DNA from: Bacteroidales bacterium
GTDB lineage: Bacteria; Bacteroidota; Bacteroidia; Bacteroidales; JAADJA01
NCBI GenBank assembly: GCA_021740645.1
Contig: JAIOZL010000013.1
Span: 1-64,000, forward strand
Length of the DNA: 64,000 nt
Direction of reading: 5' to 3'
A program made the position numbers and the translations under genes. The notes below the pieces were generated by a model. The model saw only the letters and a list, made by a program, of their open reading frames with translations, had not been told where the DNA came from and searched no databases. Positions 43,918 through 54,817 of this stretch are shown piece by piece (the stretch's first letter is position 1; every line of letters starts with the position of its first letter).

Positions 43918-45729
43918 ATGCAGCGAAACTTTACCGAACGGAAATATATTATCATTGGCTTGTTTATTGTTGTAAGCCTTATCTATCTCATTCGGCTTTT
44001 TTATCTTCAAGTCCTGGATGATACCTATATTTTGTCAGCAGAAAGTAATGTTTTAAGAAAGAATATTATCTATCCCAACCGGGGCCTGATTTACGACCGT
44101 AATAATAAACTCCTGGTGTATGACGAAGCTGCCTACGACCTGATGATCATTCCGGGGCAGGTGAAAGAAATAGATACTGCTGAATTCTGCACTTTGCTAG
44201 GTATTACTGATTCAATTTTTCAACTGAAAATGAAAAGGGTAAATAAGTATTCGAGGTATAAACCTTCCATATTTATTTCACAAATCACAAAGGAGGAATT
44301 TGGCTTCATCGAAGAAAAAATGTTTAAGTTTCCTGGTTTTTTTGTTCAGTCCAGGTCTTTACGCAAATACCCAATTCCCATAGCTTCTCACACATTGGGT
44401 TATATCGGGGAAGTAAATAATAAGGATATAGAAAAGGATGCTTATTATAAAAGTGGTGATTACATTGGTAAAAGTGGCCTTGAACGCTTTTATGAAAAGG
44501 AGTTGCGCGGTAAGAAAGGGGTAGAGATCGTGATGGTGGATGTGCACAACCGCGAACAAGGCAGTTATCGAAGTGGCCGATATGATACCATTTCGGAACA
44601 GGGTAAAAATCTTTATTTGTCCATTGATGCAGATCTCCAGGCTTATGGAGAGCAATTAATGCAGAATAAGTTGGGAAGTATTGTAGCCATCGACCCAAAT
44701 ACGGGTGGCATATTAGCCTTTGTGACCAGCCCGGTATACGACCCCAATCTACTGGTAGGGAGAGTGAGAGGCGATAACTTCAACAAACTCAATACCGATT
44801 CACTTAAGCCATTACTTAACCGGGCAATTATGGGAAACTACCCCCCCGGTTCCACATTTAAAATGGTCAATGCACTGGTAGGATTACAGGAAGGTGTTTT
44901 ACATGAAGGAACGAGATATTCATGCAGTGGGCCTGCTTCCACCCCAATCCGATGTACGCACAACCATATCTCCCCACTGGCCCTTCAGATGGCCATTGAA
45001 CAGTCGTGTAATCCTTATTTCTGGAATGTTTACAGGTCGATTATCACAAACTACCCCTCTTCAAAGGAGGCTTATACTATTTGGCGGCAACATGTCTTAA
45101 GCCTGGGTTTTGGGCAGGAATTTAATACTGATATCCCTTTTGAACTGGGCGGAAATATACCTCCTGCCGAATACTTTGATAAAGTTTATGGGGAGGGGCA
45201 TTGGAATGCTTTTACCATTCGGTCGTTGGCCATCGGACAGGGTGAAATCCTGGTAACTCCTCTGCAGTTAGCCAATCTTGCAGCTGTTATTGCCAATAAA
45301 GGATTTTATTACCCCCCGCATTTGGTAACTGCCGTCGGGACAAAGCAAAATAAAATTGAGGCATTTACCGAGAAAAAAAACTCAAGCATTGCTCCTGAAA
45401 ATTTTACCGTAGTGCAGGAGGCCATGCTTGAAGTGTTTGAGGGGGAACATGGTACTGCCCGCTGGGCGAAACTTCCGGGGGTTCATATTTGCGGTAAAAC
45501 AGGAACAGTTCAAAACCCGCATGGTGAGGACCATTCCATGTTTATTGCGTTTGCACCCCTCGAAAATCCCCAAATAGCCATAACAGTGATCGTTGAAAAC
45601 TCAGGATATGGATCTACCTGGGCAGCACCTATTGCCAGTTTGCTGGTCGAAAAATATTTAAATGATACGATCACCCGTCCTCAAATAGAAAAAAGAATGT
45701 TAGCCGGAAACCTGATCCATAAAAAATGA
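43918..45729 (+). CDS. mrdA: Penicillin-binding protein 2 (elongation transpeptidase)
   Basis: The 603-residue transpeptidase is anchored by one N-terminal helix (about 10-30). Its pedestal domain (about 45-220) is followed by the transpeptidase domain, with SxxK Ser312-Lys315 (GSTFK), SxN Ser363-Asn365 (EQSCN) and KTG 527-529 (CGKTG). With RodA it makes the side-wall peptidoglycan. It overlaps rodA by four bases. The mreBCD genes that usually precede it in Bacteroidota are not next to it here. Confidence 0.94.
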   Translation: MQRNFTERKYIIIGLFIVVSLIYLIRLFYLQVLDDTYILSAESNVLRKNIIYPNRGLIYDRNNKLLVYDEAAYDLMIIPGQVKEIDTAEFCTLLGITDSIFQLKMKRVNKYSRYKPSIFISQITKEEFGFIEEKMFKFPGFFVQSRSLRKYPIPIASHTLGYIGEVNNKDIEKDAYYKSGDYIGKSGLERFYEKELRGKKGVEIVMVDVHNREQGSYRSGRYDTISEQGKNLYLSIDADLQAYGEQLMQNKLGSIVAIDPNTGGILAFVTSPVYDPNLLVGRVRGDNFNKLNTDSLKPLLNRAIMGNYPPGSTFKMVNALVGLQEGVLHEGTRYSCSGPASTPIRCTHNHISPLALQMAIEQSCNPYFWNVYRSIITNYPSSKEAYTIWRQHVLSLGFGQEFNTDIPFELGGNIPPAEYFDKVYGEGHWNAFTIRSLAIGQGEILVTPLQLANLAAVIANKGFYYPPHLVTAVGTKQNKIEAFTEKKNSSIAPENFTVVQEAMLEVFEGEHGTARWAKLPGVHICGKTGTVQNPHGEDHSMFIAFAPLENPQIAITVIVENSGYGSTWAAPIASLLVEKYLNDTITRPQIEKRMLAGNLIHKK

Positions 45730-46985
45730 GACAACGGACCAACATATTACAAAATATCGACTGGATAACGGTTTCGCTGTATTTTTTGCTGGTGATTATT
45801 GGCTGGATTAATATATATGCTGCAGAATATACTTCTGAACATTCCAGTATTTTTGATATGGGTATGAACTATGGTAAACAAATGATGTGGATCCTTACCT
45901 CCGTGATCCTGATCTTTTTGATCTTTATCATTGATGCTAAATTCTTTTCTACCTTTTCATGGTTTATTTTTCTCGGCATAATGGGAATGCTTGTTGGCGT
46001 GCTTTTGTTTGGTAAAGAGATTGCCGGAAGTAAGTCCTGGTTTCAAATAGGAAGTTTTTCACTTCAGCCATCAGAGTTTGCCAAGTTTGCCACGGCCCTG
46101 GCCCTGGCCGGTTATATATCTAAAATTAATACGGACTTTTCGAAGGTCTCCACCAAAATGAAAGCTGCTGTGATCATATTCATTCCATCGGTTCTCATTT
46201 TATTGCAACACGATACCGGGTCAGCACTGGTGTTTTTTGCGCTGGTATTGGTTTTGTTCAGGGAAGGTATGTCAGGATCTTTATTATTCCTTGCCATAGT
46301 AGCTGCCATATTATTTATATCTGCTTTGCTTATCAACAAGTTTATTATTCTGGGGATACTGGCATTAATTGCTATTCTGATTTTCTACTTTATGAAAAGA
46401 TTGCGGAAAAAATGGCTTTGGATTGTAGGAATTTTCCTGATTACCTCGGGTTATATTTTTAGTGTGGATTACGTTTTTGAAAATATATTAGAGCCTCACC
46501 AAACAAAGCGTATCAATGTTTTATTAGGAATAGAAAAAGATATCCGTGGTGCAGGTTATAATGTGCATCAATCTAAAATAGCCATTGGTTCAGGTGGATT
46601 TTCCGGCAAAGGATTTTTAAAAGGGACCCAAACAAAGTTTGATTTTGTACCCGAACAAAGCACCGATTTTATTTTTTGCACCGTGGGTGAAGAGTGGGGT
46701 TTTATTGGCACCTTCGTGGTTATTGCCTTATTCCTGGGATTGCTGTACAGATTAATTTTTTTAGCCGAAAGGCAAAGGTCAAAGTTCAGCCGGGTTTATG
46801 GATATGGTGTGGCCTCTATCCTGTTTTTTCATTTTGCCATTAACATTGGAATGACCATCGGATTATTCCCGGTAATTGGAATTCCATTGCCTTTTCTATC
46901 CTATGGTGGTTCTTCCCTCTGGGGATTTACTATATTGTTGTTTGTTTTTTTAAAGCAGGATGCGGTGCGGCTGGAGTTGTTGTAG
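45726..46985 (+). CDS. rodA: Peptidoglycan glycosyltransferase RodA
   Basis: The 419-residue SEDS protein has ten predicted membrane helices and conserved loops SWFQIGSFSLQPSEF and FPVIGIPLPFLSYGGSS. It polymerises glycan strands with PBP2, whose gene it overlaps by four bases (ATGA). The last 41 bases, including the stop codon, are repeated at 53751-53791, with a five-gene surface operon lying between the two copies. The gene itself remains intact. Confidence 0.94.
   Translation: MRQRTNILQNIDWITVSLYFLLVIIGWINIYAAEYTSEHSSIFDMGMNYGKQMMWILTSVILIFLIFIIDAKFFSTFSWFIFLGIMGMLVGVLLFGKEIAGSKSWFQIGSFSLQPSEFAKFATALALAGYISKINTDFSKVSTKMKAAVIIFIPSVLILLQHDTGSALVFFALVLVLFREGMSGSLLFLAIVAAILFISALLINKFIILGILALIAILIFYFMKRLRKKWLWIVGIFLITSGYIFSVDYVFENILEPHQTKRINVLLGIEKDIRGAGYNVHQSKIAIGSGGFSGKGFLKGTQTKFDFVPEQSTDFIFCTVGEEWGFIGTFVVIALFLGLLYRLIFLAERQRSKFSRVYGYGVASILFFHFAINIGMTIGLFPVIGIPLPFLSYGGSSLWGFTILLFVFLKQDAVRLELL
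46945..46985. repeat. 41-base direct repeat, copy 1 (rodA 3' end)
   Basis: It starts with TTTTTTTAAAGCAGGATGCG and ends at the rodA stop codon. It is identical to 53751-53791, as a direct repeat. Confidence 0.9.
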
Positions 46986-47012
46986 AAAGCAGCAAGTTAA
47001 TGTTAAATCATG

Positions 47013-47050
47013 TTTGCCCGATGAGGAACAAAGTATTTTGGCCGGGCAAA
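47013..47050. terminator. Possible terminator at the 3' end of the surface operon
   Basis: A perfect 8-bp stem TTTGCCCG (47013-47020) / CGGGCAAA (47043-47050) with a 22-base loop, just past the last gene of the minus-strand operon. The T-run is weak. Confidence 0.4.
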
Positions 47051-47054
47051 TTAT

Positions 47055-48665
47055 TTAATGATAGATCACTTTTTTGATAAACAACTGATCCCCAACTCGT
47101 ATTTTTACGAAATAGATGCCTTTAGGATGTTCACTGATATCCACTGCAAAACTGTTTTGATCAAAAGTTTGCTTTTGATAAATCGTTTCTCCAAACATAT
47201 TGCTTATTTCTGTAGTAAAATCTTCGGTTTCAAAATCATGTAGCTTTATTGTGAAGATTCCCGGGTTGGGGTTAGGGAAGATTTTTACAAAGGTATCAAC
47301 TAGTGGGTTGTCATCATGCGAACCTTTTTGATTTGACTTTTGATTTTTTTCAGGTACTCCAACGATATTTGATTTTGCATCAGATTCTGATGAGTTTATT
47401 GAATCTTTGGATGCTAAAAAAAGTATTTTATGAGCGGGTACAACAAGTTCCTTATCACACTCATTACTTAGGGTTAAATAAGCATCGTATGATCCCGGCC
47501 AAACATAACCAATATCAAAACATAAATTTGAAGAAGAAATGCTACCTGACTCACTGAATTTTAACTCGTCATCTTTGTATAGATCAAATCCATAAAATTC
47601 GGAATTAAAAATTTCCGAATAACAGACCTGATAACCTGACAATGTTAAGTTTGCCATTGATGGAAGGTTGCCCATACTTGGTAATGGAAAACATTGATCA
47701 ATTACGGCATGGAAATGCGATCCGGGCTTTGCGTGAAACCCGGGGTTCAAAACTATTTTTTTACCAGAGGCAAATGTAATTTCTGCACCACTATTGATTT
47801 GACATTTTTGTTTAACAGGGTTAGGGTGGTCAGAATGATATTGGACATCTCCCAGTTTTGCAACAGACCCATGCACTTCATGATTGGCATAAAACCCAGC
47901 CTTATCGTCTGAATCGAATTCAGTTATATTCCACACCATTGTATCACAATCATTAAAATAGCCCCAGTAATTAGGGCTGTCGTACCATTGGTTTATAAAC
48001 TTGCAGGTCAAGGTTTCAGGGGCTGCACATTTTTTATCTTTTGACTTTTCTCCAAAATAAAAGGTTCTCATTAGAAATGAACTATACGGTTCAGGAATCC
48101 AGTTGGGCTTACGGATCCCAAGAGCTTTGTTTTCTACAATCAAGGCTATTATTTCAAGGCCAAGAAACATATCAATTGATAAATAGTTGTCAGTTGGCTT
48201 GGTTGAAATATAGTGTGAAACATAGCAATGGTCAAGATTTGAATTATAGGTTTCATGAAAGTAGGCTGAAAGTTTTAGTTGATTTTCCATTTTATCATGG
48301 TATTTCCAACCCAAATGAAGTTTATTTCGATTAGTATTATTTGCCCTCATAAAACTTATTCGTCCTGCCTTATTCCATCCGGCATTACAACTATCAGAAC
48401 AATCGCTATCTACAGAGGCTCCATGGGTCCAGCACTCGTCCCAAAAGGCGATATTAAATTTATACCTCCTGTTGGAAGTATTTGATTTGTCCTTTTTAAC
48501 CCCTGCCCAGGCATGATCATCGCATTTATTAATTTCCTTTTGACTTCCCTTAAAGGAACCGTAACCCCCATCCGGGTCTGGAAAAATTTGTGCCATTAGG
48601 TTATTTGAAATAATAGTAAATAGTATACCACATATTATAAAAAATAAATTATTGTGTTTTATCAT
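47055..48665 (-). CDS. T9SS-exported surface protein, last gene of a five-gene operon
   Basis: The 536-residue protein has a signal peptide (about 1-25) and a large cysteine- and histidine-containing domain (about 30-280) that I do not recognise. A segment with GAEITFASGKKIVLNPGFHAK near 310 is common in Bacteroidota cell-surface proteins. The last 80 residues form a T9SS type A sorting domain (IFPNPNPGIFTIKLHD ... IYFVKIRVGDQLFIKKV). The 3' end of the gene is 70 bases from rodA. It is likely transported by T9SS and attached to the cell surface. Confidence 0.75.
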   Translation of the reverse strand: MIKHNNLFFIICGILFTIISNNLMAQIFPDPDGGYGSFKGSQKEINKCDDHAWAGVKKDKSNTSNRRYKFNIAFWDECWTHGASVDSDCSDSCNAGWNKAGRISFMRANNTNRNKLHLGWKYHDKMENQLKLSAYFHETYNSNLDHCYVSHYISTKPTDNYLSIDMFLGLEIIALIVENKALGIRKPNWIPEPYSSFLMRTFYFGEKSKDKKCAAPETLTCKFINQWYDSPNYWGYFNDCDTMVWNITEFDSDDKAGFYANHEVHGSVAKLGDVQYHSDHPNPVKQKCQINSGAEITFASGKKIVLNPGFHAKPGSHFHAVIDQCFPLPSMGNLPSMANLTLSGYQVCYSEIFNSEFYGFDLYKDDELKFSESGSISSSNLCFDIGYVWPGSYDAYLTLSNECDKELVVPAHKILFLASKDSINSSESDAKSNIVGVPEKNQKSNQKGSHDDNPLVDTFVKIFPNPNPGIFTIKLHDFETEDFTTEISNMFGETIYQKQTFDQNSFAVDISEHPKGIYFVKIRVGDQLFIKKVIYH

Positions 48666-48676
48666 TTTTTCTGTTT

Positions 48677-49201
48677 TTAAAATTTATAAGAAATTACAAT
48701 TGGTATAATTTCAATTTTTGGAAACTCGTGTCGATCTTCTGTAAAAATACTTTCTGCCGAAACCTGAATTGAAGGGCCAAATTTAAAATCACCAATGTTA
48801 TAACTAATGATTGCATTTACGCCAAACCTTTTATTCTGCTCTTCTCCGTTGAATAAAATATCTGTGCTACTGAATAATCCTAAGTTGTAGGTGAAATTAA
48901 TCCTTTCTGATTGTTTTAAAAATAAATCCCGTACATAAAAACCAATTTGTAAACTGGTTAAATGCCATTCGTTAATTTGCTCCAATCGATACTGTATGCC
49001 GGCCCCTATTCCTGTTTTAACCCCAATGGATAACCCAGGGTTAAAATTCCTTATGTATGAATAGGAGAAAAAACCAATTGGTTGTAAGGAAACTTCATGG
49101 TTACTTTTAGGGATATTATCAATACCCTTTTGACTAAAAGTGTTAGATGGAATAAAAGCTAATCCACATAAAGCACATGTTATCATTACATATAATCTCA
49201 T
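48677..49201 (-). CDS. Small outer-membrane beta-barrel-like protein (surface operon)
   Basis: The 174-residue protein has a signal peptide (1-24, ending NTFSQ) and alternating strands, ending in IEIIPIVISYKF, typical for an outer-membrane barrel. It is short (6-8 strands). It lies 11 bases before the T9SS gene at its 3' side and 10 bases after the fibre gene, so it belongs to the operon. It may anchor one of the exported proteins, but this is inference. Confidence 0.6.
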   Translation of the reverse strand: MRLYVMITCALCGLAFIPSNTFSQKGIDNIPKSNHEVSLQPIGFFSYSYIRNFNPGLSIGVKTGIGAGIQYRLEQINEWHLTSLQIGFYVRDLFLKQSERINFTYNLGLFSSTDILFNGEEQNKRFGVNAIISYNIGDFKFGPSIQVSAESIFTEDRHEFPKIEIIPIVISYKF

Positions 49202-49211
49202 GGTTAAAAAA

Positions 49212-50888
49212 TTAATCTTGAATCCGTTTCTCTAATTCGATAACATGCAGAGTAAGCTCCTCTATTTTTTTTAACAACAAGGCATTCATTTCACCCAGAT
49301 CGATCCCGTTTTCAAGGACTTCTTCTTCTGAAGGCAGGTCTGGTAAGTGACCGTTATTGTTAATATATTCTTCTACATCACTTAGTGGCATTAGTTGATA
49401 GTCTGCATCAAATACTTCGTCCCACCAATTGCCCATATGTACTTCAACTTCTTCAGCATCTATTTTTCCGTTTACTTCCATATTGTAGTTATCACTTCCT
49501 GTCCCAATAACCATTTTGTCGTCGGCATACATATTCATCCGCATTTTACCATTAGTCCTGAATTCAATGTTCCCATCAATATAAGTTGCTAACTTCAATG
49601 ACCTTTCATTTGCATTAACACCTTTCCATAGTTCAATTACAGCAGAATTTGAATTTTCACTTCCTTTGATCTCTAACTTACTACTACTACCTGATGAATT
49701 TCCCTTAATAACATTATGCACCCGGAGGTTCCCAAATATATCAAGTTTTTCAATTGGATCCATACCAATTCCTACATTACCGACACCCCGTATTATATCA
49801 CTTCCATCAATTTCCCAGTCCCCATCATCATTATCCGGCATTTCTACCCAGCTTGCATTTCCATTGGCATCTGATTGTAAAATATATCCACTGGCCTGGT
49901 TGCCGTCGGTCAACCTGAATCCATTTGTTTTAATTGTTCCGGCAACTTCCAGTTTGTGATTAGGTGAGGTTGTGCCAATCCCAACATTGCCGCTTAACCT
50001 GAAAAGATTATCACCAGCAATTGTCCAATCCCCATCATCAACACTTAAGGTCATAGGGTCCACCCAGCTGGCCAGGCCGTTGGCATCGGATTGTAATATC
50101 CTGTTGGCGGCCTGCTGGCCGTTTTCAAGGATAAAACCCGTAGATTTAATATTCCCGTTTACCTGGAGTTTTTCGGTTGGGTTGTGTATGCCAACACCAA
50201 TATTGGAGTCCCAAAACACAAAATCAGAAGCGGTATAGAAATTAAGGTCGCTGTCTGGTTTGGCCTCAATACGGTTGGGTGAGCTATTGGGGGCAGTTTC
50301 CCCGAATTTTAGTTTGGCATATTTCAAAGTGGCCGGATCGAGCAATATGTCGGCCTGTTCGTTGTCATCGCCTTTAATGTGGAGCTTTGCCTGGGGGTCG
50401 GTAACATCACCGATGCCGATTGAGCCGGTGTAACCATTGCCCGGAGAGGGCCCTACAAAAAGTGTATGTTTATTAGAATTAAAACCAATCATCATTGAAT
50501 ATGCAATGTTGTTTTCGAGAATAGATGATGAACTTTGTCCGTTGCCAAGAACAAATGAATTGGTACCACTGGCTTTGTTAAAACTACCCATTGCAACGGC
50601 ATTACTGCTTTCTGCAGAAGTTAAAGCACCAAGGGATATTGAATATGGATCACTTGCCAATGCTGAGCTTCCAAAAGCAAATGACACACCCCCTGAAGCA
50701 GTTGAATTAACACCTCCGGCAAATGAATAAGAGCCAGAAGCTGTTGTACCCTGCCCTATTTCACTGGCATAATTGCCAGGTGGGTTGCCAGTATTATCAC
50801 ATTGGGTACATGATTGAGAATACATATTTTGTACTAATAATATGGCGAATATGCACATGAATGTGCTTATAAATATATTTGTTTTCAT
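49212..50888 (-). CDS. YadA-like / tail-fibre-like surface protein (surface operon)
   Basis: The 558-residue protein has a signal peptide (about 1-24). Residues about 40-130 form YadA-head-like repeats of about 14 residues (ASGSYSFAGG, ASGGVSFAFG, ASGTNSFVLG). Then come paired modules with VGIGTTSPNHKLEV and YILQSDANGNASW (about 160-380), as in tail fibres. The C-terminus has the leucine-rich coiled coil EMNALLLKKIEELTLHVIELEKR. No T9SS sorting domain and no YadA barrel is present. A trimeric extracellular fibre is likely. Confidence 0.75.
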   Translation of the reverse strand: MKTNIFISTFMCIFAILLVQNMYSQSCTQCDNTGNPPGNYASEIGQGTTASGSYSFAGGVNSTASGGVSFAFGSSALASDPYSISLGALTSAESSNAVAMGSFNKASGTNSFVLGNGQSSSSILENNIAYSMMIGFNSNKHTLFVGPSPGNGYTGSIGIGDVTDPQAKLHIKGDDNEQADILLDPATLKYAKLKFGETAPNSSPNRIEAKPDSDLNFYTASDFVFWDSNIGVGIHNPTEKLQVNGNIKSTGFILENGQQAANRILQSDANGLASWVDPMTLSVDDGDWTIAGDNLFRLSGNVGIGTTSPNHKLEVAGTIKTNGFRLTDGNQASGYILQSDANGNASWVEMPDNDDGDWEIDGSDIIRGVGNVGIGMDPIEKLDIFGNLRVHNVIKGNSSGSSSKLEIKGSENSNSAVIELWKGVNANERSLKLATYIDGNIEFRTNGKMRMNMYADDKMVIGTGSDNYNMEVNGKIDAEEVEVHMGNWWDEVFDADYQLMPLSDVEEYINNNGHLPDLPSEEEVLENGIDLGEMNALLLKKIEELTLHVIELEKRIQD

Positions 50889-50908
50889 TTTGGTAATATT
50901 TAGGTTTA

Positions 50909-52348
50909 TTATTGTTTTAATACTTTTCCAGATTGAATAGTCTTTCCATTATCTGATATTTTATAAATATAGTATCCGGGGTTTAACCCGGTAGTTTCGA
51001 TTTGTGTACGTGGGATTGAAAGTTTAAGGTTTGCAATCAATTTTCCTCCATCCTGTGAATATAAGGACACACTTAAATCGGCCCTGTAGGTTTCTATTTT
51101 AATGTAACTATCAAAGGGGACCGGGTACACCAAAACATCGTAATCATTTGGATCAGTTGTCTCTTCGGCATGGGTAATGATGCTTTCTGGCATTACCTTC
51201 TTAAAATATGCATCCCGGTATCCAGTGCCCCCTTCATCGTCCTGAATGCCTGTAATTATGCAACCGCCATCTTCAAGGGCTTTAATGGAATACAAATATC
51301 TTGGGGTACTGCCCCCAAAGTATTTGGCACCTTTTACATTGAGCCCCGAATCGAAAAGATATATACGCCCAATCCCTTCGGTATTTGGGAAAGTTTCATC
51401 TTGTGGATAGGTGACTACCCAAATGTTGTCTTCATCAACAAAGTCAAGCCCACTAAAAGCCGGCAACCAGTTTCGGCCATCGTCAAAGATAACTGTGTCC
51501 ATCAATGGGACAAGGTCGGTATCACTGATCCTCATGTGCAAATCATAATATGCACCCGGCACTTCCTGGTTGGCCAGGCTGCCGATCACCAGGTTCCCGT
51601 CAGACAACCATCTGGCACCTATTGCACCATGATAAAAATAATTGGAGTTCATGGGAATTGTATTTACAATGTTGAGGTCATTATCAAACTCAATTAAGTT
51701 AACGAATGAAAAATCCCCAATAGCAAGGTACCCGTTGTTATCTGATTTGCAAAGAATTTCATTTCCATAATAACTTTTATAAAGGTCAGAAATAGTTGTG
51801 TTCAGCAAATCACCTGATTGGCTGAGTGTTGCAAAATAGGAATGTCTCATATCTCCTGGTAATGAGTCATCAAGGCTACCAAAAACAAATATTGTACTAT
51901 CGGGCCTTATCAGCATATCAAATAAAGAAAACTTATCGTAAGCCTCTGGAATGGGGTACATGTTTTCTTTTAGGATATCTAAACTCTCGCTTATCTCAAC
52001 AACATAGAGGTTCCTTTTATATAGCTCTACTTGGTTATCAATTGCACCAACGACCAAATAATTTCCATTTTCAAGTAAAATGCCATTACTAAAAACAGAA
52101 GTAGTATCATCCTTTACAAAAGTTTTAATTACCACATCATTTTCATTTGTAAATTTCATTATCAATGCATGCCTGTTGCCAGGTAATCCTGACCCGCCAA
52201 AAGAAATGAAGTTTCCAGACTTGTCAATAAATGTTGAAATACAATATGTATTTACTGAATCTGCTACACTAAACTCAAATACATCTTGGGCTAGTGTGAA
52301 TGTGCATTGAAAAACTATTGCAAATAATAAGAACAATTCTTTTTTCAT
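50909..52348 (-). CDS. T9SS-exported propeller-like protein (surface operon)
   Basis: The 479-residue protein has a signal peptide (1-20) and repeats of strand-turn-strand type (ISFGGSGLPGNRHALIMKF, YLVVGAIDNQVELYK, FVFGSLDDS, LVIGSLANQ, CIITGIQDDEGG) that suggest a beta-propeller. The end is a T9SS type A sorting domain (about 400-479; VYPVPFDSYIKIE ... YYIYKISDNGKTIQSGKVLK). It lies between a lipoprotein gene and the fibre gene in the same operon. Confidence 0.75.
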   Translation of the reverse strand: MKKELFLLFAIVFQCTFTLAQDVFEFSVADSVNTYCISTFIDKSGNFISFGGSGLPGNRHALIMKFTNENDVVIKTFVKDDTTSVFSNGILLENGNYLVVGAIDNQVELYKRNLYVVEISESLDILKENMYPIPEAYDKFSLFDMLIRPDSTIFVFGSLDDSLPGDMRHSYFATLSQSGDLLNTTISDLYKSYYGNEILCKSDNNGYLAIGDFSFVNLIEFDNDLNIVNTIPMNSNYFYHGAIGARWLSDGNLVIGSLANQEVPGAYYDLHMRISDTDLVPLMDTVIFDDGRNWLPAFSGLDFVDEDNIWVVTYPQDETFPNTEGIGRIYLFDSGLNVKGAKYFGGSTPRYLYSIKALEDGGCIITGIQDDEGGTGYRDAYFKKVMPESIITHAEETTDPNDYDVLVYPVPFDSYIKIETYRADLSVSLYSQDGGKLIANLKLSIPRTQIETTGLNPGYYIYKISDNGKTIQSGKVLKQ

Positions 52349-52405
52349 AGGTTATGAATATAAAACCAGAGTAGGGCACCATACAGATACCCTACTTCTA
52401 ATTAT

Positions 52406-53479
52406 CTATAATTCTGATGGCCCATCGCCTTCGCCATAGAATATTTTTAACCCATAAACAAAACTCGCTTTATGAAAATATTTTGTGGTTTCTTCTATTC
52501 CATTTACAAGTTTTTCATCTTCAAGTAAAGTTAATGACTCCACCGAATACCCATTTAAATTGTACTTGTTTGGCAGATAGGTATTAGGCAAATAATCGAA
52601 CATCAAACCATTTAAATAGGTATAATAAGCATTCATTTCAGTGTATTCAAGGCATAAAACTTCATCTTCATCAAAAGGAATGGAACTTCCTTCAATGGAA
52701 TAGTACAACCAATAGTCAAGGTAATTGTCAGGAGATGTATCACGTAACAAATCTGGCTCGCCCCCAAAAATTGAAAAACTAAATTCATTTATAAAATAGT
52801 AATTACCACTTGGATCGGGTATCAGACCTAAGGCTTCCTGGTAAAGGCGGTTGGCCGCATCATCATTAACTGTATAAGGTTCGTAGCAATAGCCCACATT
52901 TTCCCCATACCACCAGTCGTCACCTTCCTCAAATGGGCCATTGATCCCCGGGTCTGGTGGTGGTTCGTTACCTTTCTCTCCCGTAACAGTTTCCACGTTC
53001 AATGTTATTTCACCTGCTGATTGGGAAACCTCGCTAATGTCAACCAGCACAAGGCCTTTGTCTTCGTAGGTACTGTTGTAATAAACATCGGTTATGGCCT
53101 GTTTCATTTCAGTGTATTTCTGGGTCAAGTCATCCATATCTACTCCGCCATTTGCATTTTTGGGCACAACCAGGTTTAGGTCTTCGCTCTGCATTTCATC
53201 GTAGTACTCATTGGGGAAAGTATGGCTAAAATTAATGGTTGCTTCCAATAGCCAAAGTGCATCCTCTGCACTTACTACCTCCCCGCTCTTATAGCCGGGG
53301 TTTTCCTTGTATAGGGCTATTTTTTGTTTAAAGTCTTTTATTCGTTGGTTTACCTGCATTTCATAGGGTGTAAGTTCCACTTTATTTGCAGCCTGGTTAT
53401 TTGTTTCCTCTTTCGAACATGACCAAACTATAGCAATAGTGGCCACTAATATACTTATTATTAAAATTATTTTCTTCAT
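52406..53479 (-). CDS. Hypothetical lipoprotein, first gene of the surface operon
   Basis: The 357-residue protein has a lipoprotein signal ending WSCSK (Cys21). It is acidic, with a proline-rich hinge near 175-180 (EPPPDPG) and two domains on either side. No family was recognised. It lies first in a minus-strand operon of five genes (52406 back to 47055), whose products all look surface-bound, and is preceded by about 270 bases up to the rodA-tail copy, where the operon promoter should be. Confidence 0.65.
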   Translation of the reverse strand: MKKIILIISILVATIAIVWSCSKEETNNQAANKVELTPYEMQVNQRIKDFKQKIALYKENPGYKSGEVVSAEDALWLLEATINFSHTFPNEYYDEMQSEDLNLVVPKNANGGVDMDDLTQKYTEMKQAITDVYYNSTYEDKGLVLVDISEVSQSAGEITLNVETVTGEKGNEPPPDPGINGPFEEGDDWWYGENVGYCYEPYTVNDDAANRLYQEALGLIPDPSGNYYFINEFSFSIFGGEPDLLRDTSPDNYLDYWLYYSIEGSSIPFDEDEVLCLEYTEMNAYYTYLNGLMFDYLPNTYLPNKYNLNGYSVESLTLLEDEKLVNGIEETTKYFHKASFVYGLKIFYGEGDGPSEL

Positions 53480-53842
53480 TTTTTATTTTTTGGTTTTATT
53501 AAGAAAAATATCCCCTGGGTTGTTTATTCCATTCAATGTTTAGTATTTGTCGTCAGAAATAGGAAAGTAACTGCAGGAAGGAGCTTATTCCACAATAAAA
53601 TAAAATTCCGTAATATGCTGAGGGGGGGGCACTTAAATGCCCGGAAGGATCGAATTGATATGTTTTGCTTTGTCCTCTTGTTAGCATGGTTTATTGCCTG
53701 TAATATATAGTACATCCATTGGGAAAGGAAAAAGGAACCCTGAATTTTTATTTTTTTAAAGCAGGATGCGGTGCGGCTGGAGTTGTTGTAGGTGCGCGGT
53801 TTACCGTATATTTAATTTTGCCAACTGCATACTGCCAACTTT
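53480..53842. other. Intergenic region with the second rodA-tail copy
   Basis: About 360 bases. Up to 53750 it is part of the presumed insert; at 53751-53791 it has the 41-base duplication; beyond that is the 3' spacer of the convergent polyprenyl synthase gene. A G-run of eight near 53622. The frame at 53533-53715 (minus) is not convincing. Confidence 0.5.
53751..53791. repeat. 41-base direct repeat, copy 2 (rodA 3' end)
   Basis: Identical to 46945-46985. It encodes FLKQDAVRLELL and a stop, without the rest of rodA. Confidence 0.9.
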
Positions 53843-54817
53843 TCACTTCTTCCGCTCAATTGTAAAATCAACAAGTTTTTTCAGGGAAGTTTTTGAGGGT
53901 GAGTCGGGCAGACCTTTCAGAATATCAAGGGCTTCCTTATGGTAGGAATTCATTTTTTCAGCAGCATATTCAATTCCCCCGCTATGGTTAACTTTATCAA
54001 TAACGAACTTAACTTTGGCAGGGTTGGTATTGTGGTTTTTAATGATGTTGATGATCTTCCTTTTTTCTGACCTATCCACATTGTTCAATAAATATATTAA
54101 GGGTAGGGTCATTTTCTGCTCCTTAATATCAATTCCATTGGGTTTGCCGGTTTTGTTTGCAGTTTGGTAGTCAAACAGGTCGTCTTTGATCTGGAAAGCA
54201 ATCCCTACTTTTTCTCCAAAGTCCTTCATTAACTTTATGGTAGCTTCATCGCTGCCCACTGAAGCGGCACCTGCTGCACAACACGAAGCGATCAGGGAAG
54301 CTGTCTTTTTGCGGATGATCTCAAAATAAATGGCTTCGTCGATGTCGAGCTTCCGGGCTTTTTCAATTTGTAGCAGTTCCCCTTCACTCATATCTTTGGT
54401 GGCATCAGAAACTATTCGGAGCAACTCAAACTCATTGGAATTGAGAGAGAGCAGCATCCCTTTCGAAAATAAATAATCACCCACCAGTACCGCAACTTTA
54501 TTTTTCCATAATGCATTGATGGAAAAGAAACCACGCCGCTCATTGCTATCGTCTACCACGTCATCATGAACCAGGGTAGCAGTGTGCAATAATTCTATCA
54601 GGGAAGCAGCAATATAGGTAGGCTCTTTGATTTCGCCATGAATGCCCGCGCTTAAGAACACAAACATCGGGCGCATCTGTTTGCCCTTTCTTTTTAAAAT
54701 ATACCTTGTAATGATATCGAGCAGGGCTACATTGCTTTTCATCGACGCCCTGAACTTTTTTTCAAAAATATCGAGGTGAGATTGTATGGGTGCTTTTATT
54801 TCGTTTAGCTTACTCAT
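53843..54817 (-). CDS. Polyprenyl diphosphate synthase (trans-isoprenyl)
   Basis: The 324-residue enzyme extends allylic prenyl diphosphates with isopentenyl diphosphate. Both aspartate-rich motifs are present: DDVVDDS after LLHTATLVH (about 84-90) and FQIKDDLFDYQ (about 210). The length fits octaprenyl- or heptaprenyl-type enzymes, needed for the quinone side chain. The sequence does not fix chain length. It is convergent with rodA apart from the inserted operon. Confidence 0.88.
   Translation of the reverse strand: MSKLNEIKAPIQSHLDIFEKKFRASMKSNVALLDIITRYILKRKGKQMRPMFVFLSAGIHGEIKEPTYIAASLIELLHTATLVHDDVVDDSNERRGFFSINALWKNKVAVLVGDYLFSKGMLLSLNSNEFELLRIVSDATKDMSEGELLQIEKARKLDIDEAIYFEIIRKKTASLIASCCAAGAASVGSDEATIKLMKDFGEKVGIAFQIKDDLFDYQTANKTGKPNGIDIKEQKMTLPLIYLLNNVDRSEKRKIINIIKNHNTNPAKVKFVIDKVNHSGGIEYAAEKMNSYHKEALDILKGLPDSPSKTSLKKLVDFTIERKK

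Follow-up and report, generated by a model that had tools for sequence, protein, structure and literature searches.

The window analysed here is a 64,000-nucleotide (nt) stretch of the draft genome of a Bacteroidales bacterium (contig JAIOZL010000013.1). In this window the gene rodA and the polyprenyl synthase gene pps converge, and between them lies a block of five open reading frames on the minus strand, called g5-g4-g3-g2-g1 in the order of their transcription. The last 41 bases of rodA occur a second time on the far side of this block, next to pps. We hold with moderate confidence that the block is an operon gained at the rodA-pps junction by a single illegitimate event, probably by template switching during replication.

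Genes and repeats at the rodA-pps junction

The locus is composed as follows, with the five reading frames and the convergent pps lying where an initial annotation of the window had placed them.

45726–46985, plus strand: rodA (FtsW/RodA/SpoVE family), intact, ending within repeat copy 1 (Pfam PF01098, E 2.2e-77)
46945–46985, plus strand: repeat copy 1, the final 41 nt of rodA, the stop codon among them (identical to 53751–53791)
46986–47054, minus strand: 69-nt gap from repeat copy 1 to the stop of g1, with a hairpin of 9 base pairs (bp) at 47012–47020/47043–47051 (shuffle folding)
47055–48665, minus strand: g1, type IX secretion system (T9SS) type A protein with GCX_COOH domain (PF18962, E 1.8e-15; NF045639, TIGR04183)
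48677–49201, minus strand: g2, orphan of 174 amino acids (no match in Pfam)
49212–50888, minus strand: g3, fibre protein with YadA head repeat (PF05658, E 2.6e-7)
50909–52348, minus strand: g4, T9SS type A protein (PF18962, E 2.7e-6; TIGR04183, E 5.1e-7)
52406–53479, minus strand: g5, lipoprotein of a conserved family without a name, first gene of the operon (Cys21)
53480–53750, minus strand: region of 271 nt upstream of g5, presumed to contain the promoter (genus without a clear relative at the DNA level)
53751–53791, plus strand: repeat copy 2, the rodA end again, here non-coding (identical to copy 1)
53792–53842, no strand: spacer of 51 nt, presumed ancestral rodA-pps spacer (the spacers of the six empty relatives span this length)
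53843–54817, minus strand: pps, polyprenyl synthase, right-hand neighbour, convergent with rodA (PF00348, E 1e-66)

The initial annotation described the repeat as an exact and direct duplication of the rodA end that leaves the gene intact, and both parts of this description are confirmed: the two copies are identical over 41 nt and in direct orientation, and the reading frame of rodA reaches its own stop codon. Copy 1 is the 3' end of rodA with the stop codon included and reads FLKQDAVRLELL*. Allowing one mismatch lengthens the match between both copies to 45 nt. Outside the repeat the flanks agree at 10/40 bases on the left and at 6/40 on the right, which is the level of chance, and the ends of the repeat are thus sharp. 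Within the window this is the sole exact direct repeat of at least 20 nt spaced by more than 1.5 kb, more closely spaced repeats being present. A core of 31 nt, searched with up to 3 mismatches, is found in two places only in the 5.06 Mb draft genome, and a reversed control gives 0 matches. An identity of this length is far beyond chance.

We compared this repeat with exact repeats of at least 30 nt lying 1.5–15 kb apart in 136 Bacteroidota DNA stretches (2.22 Mb, partly overlapping). Eleven such repeats were detected, and sharp ends are found in four of them. Three of these four are intergenic at both sides; the repeat of the window alone couples the 3' end of a gene with an intergenic site, which makes it a rare event. 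One event of long target duplication was found in the 2.22 Mb surveyed, and no further duplication of a gene end was seen in a 0.50 Mb sample of the window's genome. The long repeats inspected in detail belong to intergenic families or to paralogous genes.

Copy 2 is non-coding and hence expected to drift. Provided that it evolves neutrally, the identity of 41/41 makes a divergence above approximately 7% since the event unlikely (0.93^41 = 0.05), which would make the insertion a young one.

The junction in related genomes

The genus is represented by 17 genomes, 65–97% complete, including that of the window (G000). Full-length rodA relatives are 68–74% identical to the rodA of the window, and pps is matched in 16 of the 17 genomes, the window's own among them. 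Both genes are found on one contig in ten genomes, namely in G000 and in nine relatives. In six relatives (G004, G006, G007, G010, G011 and G013) they lie tail to tail without any intervening gene, at distances of 13, 16, 48, 48, 68 and 133 nt, and with a single rodA tail each. If the block and one repeat copy are removed from the window, 51 nt are left between the stop codons of rodA and pps (55 nt by the measure applied to the relatives), a length that falls inside the range of 13–133 nt and so fits the empty relatives. The expectations of the initial annotation, that such a removal restores an ordinary junction and that relatives without the block should have a single copy of the repeat, are both in agreement with this comparison at the level of the genus.

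The remaining three linked relatives have other genes at this place: an MNT nucleotidyltransferase with a HepT-like protein in G008 (L036), DUF6364 and PIN proteins in G012 (L044), and a stretch of 3.3 kb with Fib_succ_major and DUF1761 proteins in G005 (L045). None of the nine linked relatives has a second rodA tail, and the window alone carries this block together with two tails; a 14-nt match in G005 is a short tandem repeat behind the stop codon and no rodA tail. The content of this junction thus changes readily, and with six empty and three differently filled junctions it is preferable to regard the block as gained there, and not as the ancestral arrangement.

In five genomes (G001, G003, G009, G014 and G015) rodA and pps lie on separate contigs; in G016 only a distant rodA paralogue was found, and its pps stands close to the end of a contig; G002 has no pps match. 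An HTH-HipA pair adjoins pps in G001 (L053), although the rodA tree groups G001 and G008 as close sisters. This pair is among the few supported groups of the tree, the base of which is weakly supported and leaves the lineage of the window without a placement. Downstream of rodA in G009 (L040, 549–1231), a pair of genes resembles a HEPN/nucleotidyltransferase module, by appearance only.

Many gene-transfer hotspots are described as lacking recognizable mobile elements in the available extracts of PMC5635113. The rodA-pps junction is similar to them in its conserved neighbours, its varying cargo and in that no integrase was seen, four kinds of cargo being present among the ten linked genomes on which the likeness is based. 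In contrast to such hotspots, the window has a duplicated gene end, which would not arise if only the flanks were exchanged by homology.

Routes by which the block may have been gained

The class of events called "insertion with long target duplication" is said to have been named by Nobusato et al. in 2000 (Gene 259:99) from Helicobacter genomes. According to available extracts, such insertions are frequently associated with restriction-modification genes (PMC1643837), and their target duplications are long and variable (PMC3031569). As in this class, the window contains a gene unit without a recombinase of its own between long direct copies of the target. The copies extend over tens of bases, are direct and stand on both sides (41/41, sharp ends), and relatives without the insert have a single copy of the target, as far as a comparison at the level of the genus goes. 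The published cases, to the extent of these extracts, concern strains of Helicobacter and often restriction-modification genes, whereas here a putative surface operon in the Bacteroidales is seen by comparison between species. Judged by its footprint, the window is a clean new case of the described class with a different cargo. Of the two explanations offered by the initial annotation, the one that supposes a duplicated target is supported, with 6/10 linked junctions empty and single-tailed, while no support was found for its alternative, a recombinase acting at the rodA end.

Template switching seems to us the likeliest of several routes that do without a recombinase. Synthesis proceeding from pps through the rodA tail would leave its template 41 bases into rodA, and the strand would then copy, or become joined to, DNA with the operon. 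Synthesis would resume at the rodA stop codon, so that the end of rodA would be copied a second time. The outcome would be a whole rodA and two identical tails, no recombinase being needed. A replication-based model of template switching has been put forward for nonrecurrent rearrangements (PMC2621351, in extracts). This route requires neither Ku nor LigD_N, and the copies that result from it are identical and sharply delimited. Ku was not found in any of the 17 genus genomes (65–97% complete), and LigD_N has no match in the genome of the window; these negatives favour a route independent of Ku and speak against classical end joining. We infer both the template switch and the donor DNA of the operon. 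A ComEC-type competence protein is present in the window's genome, and uptake of DNA by means of it is possible, though only that. Taken together, a putative surface operon between long target duplications in a genus where no Ku was found points to replication-based capture, which may be a way for surface gene sets to reach new sites.

Several observations weigh against this reading. Among 14 control genomes, Ku and LigD_N were each matched in just 1; the ComEC-type family matches in 10 of 14 controls and also in E. coli. The nearest full-length rodA is at most 74% identical, and the empty site is thus known at the level of the genus only. Within the genus no DNA donor was found for the 271-nt region upstream of g5, the best match elsewhere extending over 38 bases (E 0.003); without a donor sequence, microhomology at the joins does not serve to separate the routes. 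Around 18 other copies of the operon in the genus (see below), about five of which have both flanks within the stretch (L103, L105, L106, L112 and L117), no exact repeat of at least 16 nt spaced by more than 1.5 kb was found, repeats inside L107 aside. The duplication footprint is hence not a general property of the operon. Finally, the repeat sits in the 3' end of a gene and stops exactly at the stop codon, as the attachment site of an integrase would.

Genomic islands and mobilizable elements may use the 3' end of a gene as attachment site. The window resembles them in that a gene end is duplicated and the gene kept whole, and an element of this kind, with its recombinase since lost or acting in trans, may have integrated site-specifically at the end of rodA. 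Such an element would have come with a gene end of its own, in agreement with the restored rodA frame, intact to its stop codon, and 41 nt is presumably a length suited to an attachment site. For the tyrosine recombinase family the assembly yields five matches, but relatives of these were found neither in the window nor in 115 further stretches, comprising 15 rodA stretches from the genus and near kin, 20 stretches of the g5 operon set and 80 rodA loci from named genomes (controls were found; serine recombinases were not searched). The Pfam matches of the five block genes include no transposase or integrase. The initial annotation had also expected the same repeat beside different inserts, which was not found: the three relatives with other cargo are single-tailed, and a second rodA tail is absent downstream in all of 95 rodA rows, the best match being 14 nt. 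These rows stand for 90 distinct contigs, as L121–L125 repeat genus contigs already in L033–L047, and L139 is without downstream sequence. A core of 22 nt has no exact match in genome_contigs or viral_contigs, and the 45-nt version of the repeat gives short and weak matches only in phages and plasmids, with 80% coverage in 0/21 phage and 0/44 plasmid records. The best inverted repeat within the 41 nt is ordinary, being equalled in 140 of 500 shuffles. In contrast to islands of this type, the window thus offers no tyrosine recombinase, recurrence, symmetric core, or copy in phages, plasmids or viruses among what was searched, and we consider site-specific integration unlikely.

Capture at a staggered double-strand break, by which a fragment with the operon would be joined in and overhangs of 41 nt filled, would duplicate the target and yield the very footprint that is seen, and the class of insertions with long target duplication is known from Helicobacter, according to the extracts cited above. 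The lack of Ku and LigD_N matches speaks against it, in draft genomes that are 65–97% complete and with other end-joining ligases not searched, and we regard it as less likely still. A lower place is given to integration assisted by homology. In this case the incoming DNA, such as a circle cut out of the rodA locus of another cell, would already include a segment of the rodA end and would enter by a single crossover there. A crossover with such a circle would likewise produce two direct repeats, their length of 41 nt exceeds the threshold of 30 bp for RecA given for homology-assisted illegitimate recombination in the available part of PMC2884548, and the ComEC-type protein is at hand; this route nevertheless requires that a rodA end had been joined to the operon beforehand, and no molecule joining the two was found in the searches of genome_contigs, viral_contigs, phages or plasmids. 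Least probable, and by a clear measure improbable, is that the repeat reflects an artefact of assembly or an error of binning. The genome is a draft of 83 contigs with an estimated contamination of 5.95%, but some contig ends share 134–137 nt (four pairs among five contigs). This suggests that the word used by the assembler is much larger than 41, and the repeat is not its usual overlap; on these grounds an artefact was judged unlikely. A second rodA tail joined to the block would moreover presumably require reads spanning the join, and g5, g2 and g1 each appear on two contigs, which are possibly one assembly represented twice.

Returning to the event favoured here, gain by template switching, the same RecA threshold of 30 bp (PMC2884548, in extract) predicts that repeats of 41 nt could recombine. 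Loss of the block, restoring the ordinary junction, would then be possible in principle.

The block genes and related operons

Signatures of surface proteins are recognized by sequence in four of the five block genes. The gene labels of the initial annotation stand in part: the T9SS tails of g1 and g4 and the YadA head repeat of g3 are supported by Pfam, while results of the tools used speak neither for nor against the labels "propeller" for g4 and "barrel" for g2. The N-terminal part of g1 has no family match. For g1, 8 additional relatives are found at E <1e-50; its predicted structure has a predicted local distance difference test score (pLDDT) of 57, too weak for a fold search. For g2, only g2 itself was recovered among about 5.8 billion proteins searched, and relatives exist in 3/198 genomes, counting its own genome, the two others being weak. 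Its assignment as an outer-membrane barrel is a guess from a motif at the C-terminus. The head repeat (PF05658) relates g3 to trimeric autotransporter adhesins such as YadA. In contrast to YadA, g3 has no anchor domain among its Pfam matches at E <= 0.01, with the YadA models of NCBIfam far below cut-off, and the operon to which it belongs also encodes a lipoprotein and T9SS proteins. The cysteine Cys21 of g5 is invariant in 55/55 aligned proteins (55 out of 89 relatives), and g5 has no Pfam family. Its predicted structure (pLDDT 83.1) has no counterpart at E <= 0.001 in the PDB, the best value being 0.1, and its fold is not assigned.

The predicted function of the operon is to build a surface structure, with a lipoprotein anchor, partners exported by the T9SS and a YadA-headed fibre. 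The insert comprises at least the full gene set and perhaps a complete transcription unit. Behind g1, the 69-nt gap folds with a z of -1.83 on the plus strand (11/200 shuffles equally stable) and of -1.34 on the minus strand (24/200). The 9-bp hairpin is absent from the terminator-like sites scanned, a scan that took loops of 3–8 only; it is a possible but weak candidate for the terminator of the operon. PADLOC assigned no defence family to the block. Foreign origin was also considered on the basis of composition, and the comparison is uninformative, with a G+C content of 31.6–41.1% in the block genes and of 34.2–42.1% in their neighbours.

Relatives of g5 are found in 34/198 genomes searched, the window's own included, frequently in several copies. 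We examined 18 g5 loci, chosen from 36 other matches in the genus. A g4 relative adjoins g5 in 17 of them, and in 15 of the 18 a g3 relative is present too. The gene content after g3 varies, consisting of small proteins, of T9SS-tail proteins of differing kinds, or of both, and small proteins occupy the place of g2 in several other copies of the operon. The genome of the window itself has additional g5 relatives on contigs C43, C76 (with one internal stop) and C33. On plasmids or phages g5 has no match, and the available extracts of literature on such operons contain no description of a g5-headed type. This recurrent operon with its nameless lipoprotein family is the more interesting by-product of the analysis.

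It may be speculated that g5-g4-g3 is a mobile cargo of the Bacteroidales, which spreads as a whole and without a recombinase into intergenic junctions, the duplicated rodA tail being a fresh footprint before its decay. We consider this quite improbable.

Elsewhere in the genome of the window, one g5-g4 copy is followed directly by a small protein (L105, 6603–7154) that appears similar to a REP-associated transposase. In G012 (L107, 4669–9311), a copy of the operon is followed by a chain of genes for T9SS-tail and small proteins. Repeats of up to 60 nt occur in this chain, and the end of the cargo looks as though it were growing by duplication. Scattered through the genome of the window, repeat units of 32–124 nt, some of them with a palindromic core, are seen in the window at 627/1016, 18871/20113 and 19139/20003, and in L217 at 1238, 7262 and 10935.

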